Source: Chlorobiota bacterium
GTDB lineage: Bacteria > Bacteroidota > Ignavibacteria > Tepidaquicellales > OLB5
Length of the DNA: 46,358 nt
Direction: 5' to 3'
Assembly: GCA_022616535.1 (NCBI GenBank)
Contig: JAKEEM010000003.1
Span: forward strand, 1-46,358
How positions within the stretch are numbered: the stretch's first letter is position 1; each line of letters opens with the position of its first letter. The notes beneath the pieces are model-generated. The model searched no databases. It was not told where the DNA came from and saw only the letters and a program-made list of their open reading frames with translations. Of this stretch, positions 34,061 through 40,702 are shown one piece after another. Both the position numbers and the translations under genes were made by a program.

Positions 34061-34188
34061 AATAATTCCCTATAGCTTTACATTATTAAAACGAAGTAAT
34101 TGAACTTAACTCTTCCCGATTAAAAAATGAAGTTGCATAAATTATAATTGAATTAAATTTAAAAATATTATAGAAACATAACAACAAA

Positions 34189-37225: not shown

Positions 37226-37786
37226 TTAAAAAGGTACTTCTTCAGGTATTTTATTAAAACCTGCCAATGAATACTCAGGAATTATAACCTTCGGTTTGGG
37301 GTTTACTTCCGATTTTACAGCTTCATCGCTTTCTACCTGTGAGCGGTCAATTATACAAAGTGACCGCGTTGGATTATCGTCCAAATGGAGCAAAAAGCTC
37401 TCAGCCCAGCATTCAAGCGCCTTGGCTAAATTACCCCTGTGGGTGCTGTCCTTTGATGAGTAAATTTTAAGCCATGAGCTGTCATCGCACTCGCCGTCAT
37501 TGTACTGGATAAATCCGGTGTAAATTTCAACATAGTCTTCCCCGATTGTAAAAGAGCTGTAATCAACTGCACCGCCCTGAACAAACGTATTAACCGAAAT
37601 ATCAATAAATCCGGTGAGTTTTTTCTTGGGAAGGTTTTCAAGTGCATAGAATGCTTTTACCAGCGCATTAAATTTAACCGGGGAAACGTTGTACTTATCC
37701 GAGCCCATTATAAGCTCTTTAATAATCTGCTGGCTCGTATTTGCTGCTAGCTTATCGATGTTATTTATTACTATTTTATTATTCAT
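37226..37786 (-). CDS. Protein of unknown function with SSB-like acidic C-terminal tail
   Basis: 186 residues, no signal or membrane segment. N-terminal helical part (NIDKLAANTSQQIIKELIMG, VKFNALVKAFYALENLP), then a beta-rich middle (GFIDISVNTFVQGGAVDYSSFTIGEDYVEIYTGFIQY). The C-terminal 45 residues are Pro/Lys/Glu-rich and look disordered, ending KIPEEVPF. An acidic-x-Pro-Phe end is the hallmark of single-stranded DNA-binding protein tips that recruit DNA repair enzymes; the similarity is a short motif only. SD AAGGAG eight bases before the ATG. It follows a 44-residue membrane protein gene by 23 bases, both divergent from a WYL regulator. Confidence 0.62.
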   Translation of the reverse strand: MNNKIVINNIDKLAANTSQQIIKELIMGSDKYNVSPVKFNALVKAFYALENLPKKKLTGFIDISVNTFVQGGAVDYSSFTIGEDYVEIYTGFIQYNDGECDDSSWLKIYSSKDSTHRGNLAKALECWAESFLLHLDDNPTRSLCIIDRSQVESDEAVKSEVNPKPKVIIPEYSLAGFNKIPEEVPF

Positions 37787-37809
37787 TTCAAGCTCCTTGG
37801 ATTATAAAT

Positions 37810-37944
37810 TTAAAGAGTGGTTGACCAGATACTCAGTGCAAGAAATAAAACCGAAAGAAACAAGGTCACAGCTTTAGTGAGACGGATATTCCTTTCGCGC
37901 CTTTCCTCCCTTAAATCTTCTACAAAGTTTTTAAGTGATACCAT
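37810..37944 (-). CDS. Small single-span membrane protein
   Basis: 44 residues, MVSLKNFVEDLREERRERNI, then a basic turn and one hydrophobic helix (AVTLFLSVLFLALSIW) ending STTL. The N-terminal half is a charged amphipathic helix, so the protein should sit in the inner membrane with the N-terminus inside. A good Shine-Dalgarno (AAAGGAG, eight bases from the ATG) supports real translation. It is the first gene of the minus-strand pair with the SSB-tailed protein and its start lies close to a palindromic operator candidate. Confidence 0.65.
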   Translation of the reverse strand: MVSLKNFVEDLREERRERNIRLTKAVTLFLSVLFLALSIWSTTL

Positions 37945-38003
37945 TTTAATTCTCCTTTCTTCTCTAACAACGATACAAATATATTTTTCTTTAGAAGGGT
38001 ATG

Positions 38004-38022
38004 AGTATCATTTAATGATACT
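38004..38022. promoter_or_regulatory. Palindromic operator candidate in WYL divergon
   Basis: AGTATCATT-T-AATGATACT, a perfect 9-bp inverted repeat around one base, in the 130-base gap between the divergent genes. A related half, GTGATACCATT, overlaps the start of the 44-residue gene. Such a dyad suits a homodimeric regulator; WYL regulators often bind in their own divergent promoter. The AT-rich sequence is followed by TTTTT, so a weak hairpin is an alternative. Confidence 0.5.
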
Positions 38023-38074
38023 TTTTAAACAAACTCTATTAAAAGGTTGAAATAGCATTAATTACAGTGTATTT

Positions 38075-38950
38075 TTGCTTTACGATATGCTTGATTTTAA
38101 ATCAAAATTTAAGCGTCAGATTGAAATCCTCGGCATCTGCATAAACAAAAACTATAAAGGGCTCTCGATAAAAGATTTTGCCGAGCTTTTTGGTGTGGAA
38201 GAGCTTACAATTAAGCGCGATATGACAGATTTGCGCTCAGGCGGAATCGCTATTCACTCCTCAAAAGGCAAGGGTGTCGGACTCGAGCGAAGACCTGCTC
38301 CCGAAAAAATCAGAGAATTTATCAAACAGTACTCCGCCTTAAGCACATCGGACAGCTTTGTGGAAAAATCAACGAATCTGCTGGTTACCAAGCTTAAAGA
38401 GCAGGCACTTGCTAACATGGTCGTTTTGCAGATGTGCATCGATAAAAACAAAATGGCGGTAATTGACTACGAAAAGGACGCTGACATATTCGAAAAAAGC
38501 CAGGAGATAGCGCCGCTGTTGATTTTCCAGACAGATAATTACTGGAGGGTTTTAACAATCAGCCAGGGCAGAATTAAGCAGTTCATTATGAACAAAATCA
38601 TAAGCGCTAAGCCATCGAAGCGTTCGTTCAAGCTCATATCTAAAGAAAAAATAGAAGACGTTTTCAAGTATTCCTTCCGCAGCTGGCTCGGTGATGATAC
38701 ATATAAAATCAAACTTGAATTTTCTGCTTACTGGGCTGACAGAATCAAGCCGAAACAGCTTCTTGATAATGAAACTTTCACCGGGCAGAAAGACGGTTCG
38801 GTAATCTACGAAGCTGTTGTCAACTCGCTCGATGAAATCGCCGGCTGGGTGGTCACAAGAGGAGCCGGAGTGAAAGTGCTTGAGCCAGATGAATTGAAGG
38901 ATAAAGTCATTTTACTTGCAAACGGAGTATTAAAAAACTATAAAAAGTAA
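38075..38950 (+). CDS. WYL-domain transcriptional regulator
   Basis: 291 residues. N-terminal winged helix-turn-helix of the DeoR/HTH_11 type (LGICINKNYKGLSIKDFAELFGVEELTIKRDMTDLRSGGIAIHS). The WYL domain (about 125-200) is seen as IAPLLIFQTDNYWRVLTISQGRIKQFIMNKIISAK, the WYL core being YWRVL here, and a C-terminal WCX-like part (IKLEFSAYWADRIK...SLDEIAGWVVTRGAGVKVLEP) follows. WYL regulators sense ligands that include single-stranded DNA or nucleotides and often control phage defence or DNA repair genes. The stop codon abuts the start of the next gene. Confidence 0.87.
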   Translation: MLYDMLDFKSKFKRQIEILGICINKNYKGLSIKDFAELFGVEELTIKRDMTDLRSGGIAIHSSKGKGVGLERRPAPEKIREFIKQYSALSTSDSFVEKSTNLLVTKLKEQALANMVVLQMCIDKNKMAVIDYEKDADIFEKSQEIAPLLIFQTDNYWRVLTISQGRIKQFIMNKIISAKPSKRSFKLISKEKIEDVFKYSFRSWLGDDTYKIKLEFSAYWADRIKPKQLLDNETFTGQKDGSVIYEAVVNSLDEIAGWVVTRGAGVKVLEPDELKDKVILLANGVLKNYKK

Positions 38951-40702
38951 TTGCTCGCCGAAAATGAAATAAGTTTCAATTCCCCGAATAACTCCATTTT
39001 CAATACGGTATTTGCTGTAATTGATGTTGAAACAACGGGACTTAGTCCCGACCGGAGCAGAATTACTGAAATCGGCATAGTTAAAGTAAAAAACGGCGAG
39101 ATTATCGGCGAATACCAGCAGCTCGTAAATCCAGAGCAGTTCATTCCCTACGGAATTACACGCCTTACTGGAATAACAAACGAAATGGTCCAATTTAAGC
39201 CAAAGTTTGAAGAAATTGCGGGCGAGGTCTTAGAATTTATTTTTTCCGATGGAGAAAATGTCATCCTTGGGGGACACAATGTAAGGTTTGATTACGGGTT
39301 TCTTAATTCATCGCTGATTAGAGCGGGGTATAACAGGCTCGTTATTGCTTCCCTGTGCACTGCAAGACTCGCAAGGCGCCTAAGCCGCTCGCTCCCTTCG
39401 AAATCACTCAGCTCGCTCAGGAGGCATTTTAAAATTCATTCGCGCCGCGCCCACCGCGCCCTTGATGACGCTAAGGCAACAGCAATTATAATTACCAACT
39501 TCATCGAACAGCTTGTTACGGATTTTGAAATCGAAACAACCGATGAGCTTCTTGGTTTTCAATACAGGAAAATCTACGAGAACAAAAAACTGCCGGCAAG
39601 ATTCAAGAAATTAAAGGTCATACTCAGAAACGCTCCTCAAAAACCCGGGGTTTACTATATGCTTAACCGCAGCGGCGAAATCATATATATAGGTAAGGCA
39701 AAAAACCTTAAGGACCGCTTAAGCTCTTACTTTTACCATAATGTTTCACATACCTCAAAAATCAAAAAGCTCGTCCGCTACGTCCACAAGCTGGAGTGGG
39801 AAACAACCGGCTCCGAACTTTCTGCCCTGCTTTTGGAAAGCAAAATGATAAAACTCCACAAACCTATGTTTAACCGCGCTCTTACATCATTCAGGAAATA
39901 TCCGTTTATTAAGATTGACGCACAAAGAGAGTATCCGCGTGTGCAGAAAGTATACGAGATAATGCCGGACGGCGCTAAATATTACGGTCCCTTTGCAAGC
40001 TCATTTACAGTTAATAATCTGATTGAGGCGATAAATAAAAATTTCAAGCTGCGCAAATGCGATGACCGGGTTCTCCATCCCGCAAAAGGCAGAACGCCAT
40101 GCATGTATTATGAATTCAGCCAGTGCGGTGCCCCCTGCAATTACACTGTAACAGCGGGCGAATACAAAAAGGAAGTCAGGGGGGTCGATAGGTTTTTAAC
40201 CGGGAACTATGAAACAAACGCTGTAAAGCTTTTTGAACAACAAATGCATACGGAAGCCGAAAATATGAATTTCGAAAAAGCATCACATTTGCGCGATAAT
40301 ATTGCAGATTTGAGAAAAGTCCTGCTTAACATTGAGCTTACCAACTCAATTGTTGAGATGCAGAATTACATCATAAAATGCCGGGATGAAAATTCTAAAA
40401 ACATTGGGGAAATATTTTTAATGGCAGGCGGAAAGCTTGCAAAAACCTATATAGTTGATTCCGAAGACCCTGATGAAGACTTTTACAGCAATCTTTACGA
40501 GGAAATTAACTATTTATATTTCAGCGGAACTCTGTTCAGAGATTATATTTTCAGCGGGGCGCAGCAAAAATTCAAAATCAATGAAATAGACCAGGTTAAA
40601 ATCATTTCGAACTGGGTTTACAGAAATTACAAGCCTTCGAGAATACTGAAATTAACCCCCAAAACCAGAATCGATGATGTAATGAAGTTTATTTTTAAAT
40701 AG
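38951..40702 (+). CDS. Fused DnaQ-like exonuclease and GIY-YIG/UvrC-type nuclease
   Basis: 583 residues. The DEDDh 3'-5' exonuclease has Asp25 and Glu27 (VIDVETTG), an Asp in GGHNVRFDYGF, and His168/Asp173 in RRAHRALDDAKA. The GIY-YIG domain begins KPGVYYMLNRSGEIIYIGKAKNLKDRL. The Cys cluster RKCD...TPCMYYEFSQCGAPC matches the UvrC iron-sulfur region, and a UVR motif follows (EAENMNFEKASHLRDNI). The UvrC C-terminal RNase H nuclease is missing, so it resembles Cho-type proteins fused to an exonuclease, as known from Actinobacteria. Start is TTG at 38951, directly after the WYL stop. Confidence 0.92.
   Translation: MLAENEISFNSPNNSIFNTVFAVIDVETTGLSPDRSRITEIGIVKVKNGEIIGEYQQLVNPEQFIPYGITRLTGITNEMVQFKPKFEEIAGEVLEFIFSDGENVILGGHNVRFDYGFLNSSLIRAGYNRLVIASLCTARLARRLSRSLPSKSLSSLRRHFKIHSRRAHRALDDAKATAIIITNFIEQLVTDFEIETTDELLGFQYRKIYENKKLPARFKKLKVILRNAPQKPGVYYMLNRSGEIIYIGKAKNLKDRLSSYFYHNVSHTSKIKKLVRYVHKLEWETTGSELSALLLESKMIKLHKPMFNRALTSFRKYPFIKIDAQREYPRVQKVYEIMPDGAKYYGPFASSFTVNNLIEAINKNFKLRKCDDRVLHPAKGRTPCMYYEFSQCGAPCNYTVTAGEYKKEVRGVDRFLTGNYETNAVKLFEQQMHTEAENMNFEKASHLRDNIADLRKVLLNIELTNSIVEMQNYIIKCRDENSKNIGEIFLMAGGKLAKTYIVDSEDPDEDFYSNLYEEINYLYFSGTLFRDYIFSGAQQKFKINEIDQVKIISNWVYRNYKPSRILKLTPKTRIDDVMKFIFK

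Follow-up and report, generated by a model that had tools for sequence, protein, structure and literature searches.

What does the WYL-family regulator encoded in a 46,358-nucleotide stretch of a Chlorobiota bacterium genome (GCA_022616535.1, contig JAKEEM010000003.1; hereafter the window) control, and which of its neighbours belong with it? A first-pass annotation of the window had grouped four open reading frames (ORFs): the regulator gene and a fused nuclease gene on one side of a perfect dyad and, on the other, genes for a 44-residue membrane protein (TM44) and a 186-residue protein (P186) whose end resembles that of single-stranded DNA-binding protein (SSB). It had read the four as a possible DNA-repair or defence module. 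All four ORFs are present at the positions listed below. We propose, with moderate confidence, that the WYL protein is an activator of the DriD/PafBC kind governing a LexA-independent DNA-damage regulon, in which the TM44-P186 operon would be the dedicated output. The features on which this proposal draws are the following.

37226-37786, minus strand: P186, a 186-residue protein of a new family, with a folded core at about residues 8-152, a disordered linker at 153-180 and an SSB-like tip
37229-37243, minus strand: codons of the C-terminal EEVPF tip, resembling the SSB C terminus (SSB-Ct); [DE]E[VA]PF in 12/12 homologues
37810-37944, minus strand: TM44, a 44-residue protein, first gene of the TM44-P186 operon; 52-84% identity, intact in 12/12
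37976-37983, minus strand: -7 promoter box TATATTTG of the TM44-P186 operon, Bacteroidota type TAnnTTTG, exact in every distinct TM44 promoter
38005-38021, no strand assigned: operator dyad GTATCAT-N3-ATGATAC, at the TM44 promoter in 12/12 and also at recA and other genes
38087-38950, plus strand: WYL-family regulator (HTH_11, WYL-like, WCX), assigned by profile matches; dyads lie beside its orthologues in other families
38951-40702, plus strand: DnaQ-GIY-YIG-UvrC-like nuclease (NCBIfam PRK07883 type), a neighbour outside the conserved unit

The WYL gene, TM44 and P186 form a conserved unit

The genome that contains the window (G000) is Ignavibacteria-type, 2.9 Mb in size and 98% complete. It was compared with a set of 44 genomes of its order, 15 of them in its family; all are assemblies, and assembly gaps may account for some absences. 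P186 was found in 12 of the 44 genomes, all 12 within one family. In every one of these, TM44 and P186 lie in that order on one strand, and the WYL gene is transcribed away from them. The trio occupies one mostly syntenic place across almost all relatives, and in G003 it is retained although its P186-side flank has been replaced by other genes. Only a WYL paralogue (~53% identity) was found in the three family members without P186 (G001, G010 and G012); two of these genomes are incomplete (87% and 75%), which leaves the all-or-none pattern secure in G012 (94%) alone.

The nuclease does not share this linkage. Nine relatives have it on the same contig as the WYL gene, and there about 2-4.5 kb separate the two genes; the intervening stretch holds variable genes and a methyltransferase on the opposite strand. 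The abutment that the first-pass annotation had described does exist in the window, where the two ORFs share a frame and are split by a single TAA followed by TTG (38948-38953); termination-reinitiation from the WYL gene into the nuclease is possible in the window genome only. Given the distance in the nine relatives, we regard the abutting arrangement as local to the window genome and the nuclease as lying outside the unit. The proposed four-gene grouping thus holds for the WYL gene, TM44 and P186, which stay together in 12/12, and fails for the nuclease. Separation in relatives, which the annotation itself had named as counter-evidence, was seen for the nuclease and for none of the other three genes.

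TM44 consists of a charged N-terminal segment and one C-terminal membrane helix, is separated from P186 by 23 nt in the window and has no family match in Pfam, PHROGs, PADLOC or NCBIfam. Division inhibitors of the SidA/DidA type are small single-helix inner-membrane proteins under damage control that block FtsW/I/N. The size and the single hydrophobic helix of TM44 are compatible with a protein of this type.

P186 ends in an SSB-like tip

P186 was correctly said to end in PEEVPF, and [DE]E[VA]PF closes all 12 homologues in the family; the regular loss of the acidic-Pro-Phe end, which the annotation would have counted against its proposal, was not seen among them. Pairwise identity across the 12 homologues is ~81% in the core, 44% in the linker and 87% in the last five residues. 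Selection on the tip is supported at the level of sequence. The housekeeping SSB of the same family ends in DDDLPF. When the whole genome was scanned with a degenerate DNA pattern for [DE][DE][V/I/L/M]PF-stop, P186 was the one match; the pattern omits TTA/TTG leucine and hence misses SSB itself.

The core of the protein does not resemble SSB. P186 has no family match in Pfam, PHROGs, NCBIfam, PADLOC or PDB. Its AlphaFold2 model (predicted template modelling score, pTM, 0.62) shows two helices, a beta-sheet and two more helices, with residues 153-186 disordered, and comparing it with PDB and viral folds turned up nothing at E<=0.001. For the core, neither an SSB/OB profile nor an OB-fold match was obtained, with the reservation that a model of this modest quality is not final. 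P186 resembles SSB in carrying an acidic-hydrophobic-Pro-Phe end at the extreme C terminus after a disordered linker, and differs from it in a core that shows no OB-fold by sequence or by model.

Conserved C-termini have many uses, and EEVPF could instead be a signal of another kind, for instance a degron or a site that contacts the P186 core or TM44. A remote P186 homologue in G143 (155 aa, E 2e-22), which has no tip, would agree with this. We nevertheless consider such a role unlikely, if worth keeping in mind: the composition and end position of the motif fit SSB-Ct, and it follows a disordered, variable linker as in SSB. The tip-less homologue indicates that the tip belongs to the chromosomal family and not to every homologue. 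It lies in an integrated element (L131:7522-14578) beside a tyrosine integrase and a DnaB-like helicase, the latter named from its sequence and not by a family search. As to a phage origin of P186, no relative was present in viral contigs and P186 had no match to phages. A similarity between the G143 homologue and a gene from a T4-like 'anti-restriction nuclease' neighbourhood (E 4e-3) was confined to one phage lineage and absent for P186 itself, and was judged unsupported.

A single promoter rule links TM44-P186 to recA

The perfect dyad claimed between the divergent genes was recovered as AGTATCATTTAATGATACT, with its core at 38005-38021. Across the 12 genomes, the TM44-WYL intergenic region contains two conserved blocks, the 17-bp dyad GTATCAT-N3-ATGATAC, perfect in 12/12, and the -7 box. 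The distance between them on the TM44 strand is a constant 21 nt, whereas the dyad-to-WYL distance differs by hundreds of bases between genomes, which assigns the operator to TM44-P186. The notion of a WYL-controlled divergon is supported.

Within the 15 family genomes, 99 dyad sites with at most one mismatch were counted, compared to 4 for a reversed control pattern (~25-fold). We fetched 55 distinct sites, which were not picked by their -7 box, and tested spacings of 5-44: an exact TAnnTTTG at spacing 21 was present at 30 of them, and at all 39 other spacings together only 3 were found. These 30 sites correspond to 11 TM44 promoters, 12 recA promoters and 7 others. In some genomes the dyad and an exact or near-exact box also precede umuDC, a cytosine methyltransferase, an N4/N6 methyltransferase, transposases and TPR proteins. 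The recA dyad is present in 13 of the 15 family genomes with 0-2 mismatches. In the neighbourhoods of 11 relatives (~160 kb), the TM44 promoter is the only dyad-plus-box promoter, and the composite operator pattern did not occur in viral contigs. The link to DNA damage suggested in the first-pass annotation is supported by the operator common to TM44-P186, recA and umuDC.

Several other dyads deserve mention. In the window genome, two transposase-like genes (G000:C29:25327, L152; G000:C72:63730, L154) carry the dyad with a perfect -7 box 21 nt away, which hints at transposition induced by damage. Genes for proteins of 265-279 aa with a helix-turn-helix-like 'HKISKATVYRE' segment (L156, L166, L247, L253) have the dyad at spacing 22, not 21. 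At a TPR protein gene (L160, L172, L182, L185, L188, L245) the dyad overlaps the likely start and the -7 box falls inside the ORF, so the real start is probably further downstream.

The linked WYL protein is the probable binder of the dyad

The naming of the regulator as a WYL protein agrees with helix-turn-helix, WCX and WYL-type profile matches (Pfam WCX, 1e-13, and HTH_11, 4e-7; PADLOC WYL profile, 7.5e-17). The conserved ATG at 38087 is its likely start, in place of the TTG at 38075. It fits the architecture of DriD/PafBC-type activators (winged helix-turn-helix, helical bundle, WYL, WCX); the middle part of this assignment rests on profiles, the AlphaFold2 model of the regulator being poor (pTM 0.33). 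By sequence, a match to PafC is limited to the WCX end (E 0.0035).

WYL orthologues with 43-50% identity occur in three other families (G148, G184, G054, G122 and G129), and in all five genomes a dyad with 0-1 mismatch lies 78-176 bp upstream of the gene, where the chance expectation is ~8e-5 per 500 bp. A recognition helix reading [ED]ELTIKRD is paired with the outer G..C of the dyad in 15/15, while paralogues with I(M/L/R)RD, in which M, L or R replaces the lysine, have the outer G..C in 0/7 and changed outer bases in 7/7, counts that ignore shared ancestry. Three WYL orthologues with other helix changes have no dyad. The dyads beside orthologues in other families and this covariation of helix and site make the linked WYL protein the likely binder, an assignment that comparative sequence evidence supports well.

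Four of these five orthologues, in other families of the class, face a gene with an ARPP-1 domain. This gene, transcribed away from the WYL orthologue and separated from it by the dyad (L124, L125, L126, L128), is a candidate damage-response gene.

It could be argued that the dyads are sites of the ~50% WYL paralogue or of another regulator, and that the linked WYL protein controls something else, given that the paralogue is the only one of the two WYL proteins in G012, G001 and G010 and that G012 and G010 retain the recA dyad. We find this improbable. Only the linked WYL protein is detected at E<=1e-20 in G000, G004 and G005, yet these genomes have dyads; the sites of the paralogue itself have other outer bases, matching the change in its helix; and TM44-P186 accompanies the linked WYL gene in 12/12.

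Another candidate is LexA, which was found in full length, with its S24 domain read from sequence, in 12 of the 15 family genomes. The regulon is SOS-like in content (recA, umuDC), and G001 and G012, which are nearly free of dyads, have no LexA. If the dyad were a LexA box, TM44-P186 would belong to the usual SOS operons, with the WYL gene an incidental neighbour. This appears quite improbable to us, as the two kinds of site are distributed differently. The lexA promoter carries TACTGTATATTTATACAGTGTA, a CTGT-N8-ACAG box of the E. coli type from which some genomes deviate by one base, and has no dyad; recA has the dyad, and CTGT-N8-ACAG was absent from it in 14/14 genomes examined. The TM44-P186 operon is likewise without the lexA-type box. 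Moreover, G012 retains the recA dyad without LexA, and dyads flank WYL genes in other families.

An anti-phage defence module of four genes, for which the distant P186 homologue in an integrated element and the BrxR-type WYL regulators that guard defence islands (PMC9122601) might be cited, is highly improbable, as almost all relatives keep the trio, family-wide, at the same syntenic place, no PADLOC defence profile matches TM44 or P186, the nuclease is not kept and the operator is common to recA; the defence role raised in the first-pass annotation was accordingly dropped.

A proposed damage-responsive activator and its outputs

The linkage of the genes, the conservation of tip and operator, the promoter geometry and the site in common with recA can be read directly from sequence. 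We infer the WYL protein as binder, activation and not repression as its action, damage as its signal, and the functions of TM44 and P186 given here. A WYL dimer would bind GTATCAT-N3-ATGATAC in place of a -33 element and help RNA polymerase to start from the -7 box exactly 21 nt downstream. Its regulon would comprise recA and, in some species, umuDC, DNA methyltransferases and transposases, with the divergent TM44-P186 operon as its dedicated, always-linked target. Single-stranded DNA or another damage signal would load the WYL domain, and TM44 and P186 would be produced. The P186 tip may dock on SSB-binding pockets of the RecQ, PriA, RecO or ExoI type, recruiting repair enzymes or competing with them. 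TM44 may be a damage-induced brake on division, by analogy with SidA/DidA, or a membrane partner or anchor of P186.

Several observations weigh against this proposal. A dyad at the -33 position would suit a repressor too. The WYL motif of the regulator is degenerate (YWRVL); by eye, its WYL domain reads R/K-x-KQF...NKI where the PafB type has RxFRLDRI, and of the two positions where PafB has its arginines for single-stranded DNA, one is occupied by lysine and the other by a non-basic residue. With the contact residues and the WYL motif altered, the ligand may differ from single-stranded DNA. The recA gene of G005 has no dyad, that of G012 keeps its dyad though only the WYL paralogue is present, and recA sites may be shared by the paralogue. 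The tip-less P186 homologue of G143 and the shared ancestry behind the covariation counts belong here as well.

More tentatively, and with some doubt on our side, the WYL protein, and not LexA, may govern recA and a large share of the damage response in this family. The core output may then be a new two-protein device, in which a non-SSB protein with an SSB tip captures or redirects the SSB-binding repair machinery and a micro-membrane partner ties it to the envelope or division.

Comparison with known systems

The DriD site sits across the -35 element with constant spacing to the -10 box, and one gene that DriD activates, independently of the SOS response, is didA, which encodes a small membrane protein inhibiting division (PMC12340889, PMC4211646). 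PafBC is turned on by single-stranded DNA (PMC11804915). It is this likeness of promoter geometry, together with the PafBC precedent, that leads us to propose the WYL protein as a damage-sensing activator. Like Caulobacter DriD (didA, bapE, recJ, dnaG), it is a WYL/WCX regulator separate from LexA, its site overlaps the -35/-33 region at a fixed distance from the -10/-7, and a small one-helix membrane protein is among its targets, here as proposed from the operator. The DriD operator is ATACGAC-N7-GTCGTAT, in contrast to GTATCAT-N3-ATGATAC; here, in addition, recA carries the site (13/15) and the regulator is divergent to its main operon. We know of no counterpart of P186, with its SSB-like tip, in the DriD regulon.

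Mycobacterial PafBC resembles the regulon proposed here in that a WYL regulator acts on DNA-damage genes including recA, beside LexA. It differs in that a heterodimer is replaced here by a single WYL protein, probably a homodimer given the symmetric site, and in promoter class. In Bacteroidetes, non-canonical LexA-like regulators are S24-peptidase repressors with the motifs GGA-N5-TCC or CTAA-N5-TTAG (PMC8565304). There too, lineage-specific DNA-damage operators replace the classical one; the regulator proposed here is instead a WYL protein, and LexA keeps its own CTGT-type box.

Our search of the literature on WYL or LexA damage regulons in Ignavibacteria found no relevant paper. For this lineage, without a damage regulon description that we could find, the analysis supplies an explicit operator, the promoter rule that a TAnnTTTG box follows the dyad at 21 nt, and a regulator candidate, and WYL-driven control of recA is possibly extended to a new phylum-level group. 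It also brings to light a new protein family with a putative SSB-type docking tip on a non-SSB-like core.

Neighbouring genes

On the P186 side, most relatives have a PurK-like gene (~378 aa) between a HAD hydrolase gene and purE. This gene is missing at 34061-34188 of the window and at the same place in G009 (L030).

On the WYL side, the nuclease of the relatives has neither an operator promoter nor a LexA box. Dyad-like matches at its start in some of them fall in coding sequence without a -7 box and were rejected. The make-up given in the first-pass annotation, a DnaQ exonuclease with GIY-YIG and UvrC homology, was confirmed: a domain scan returned RNase_T, GIY-YIG and UVR, and the best NCBIfam model is PRK07883-type, slightly below its curated cut-off. 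The neighbour of the conserved unit is thus a nuclease of a known kind, the DnaQ-UvrC-like exonucleases of PRK07883/NF005906.

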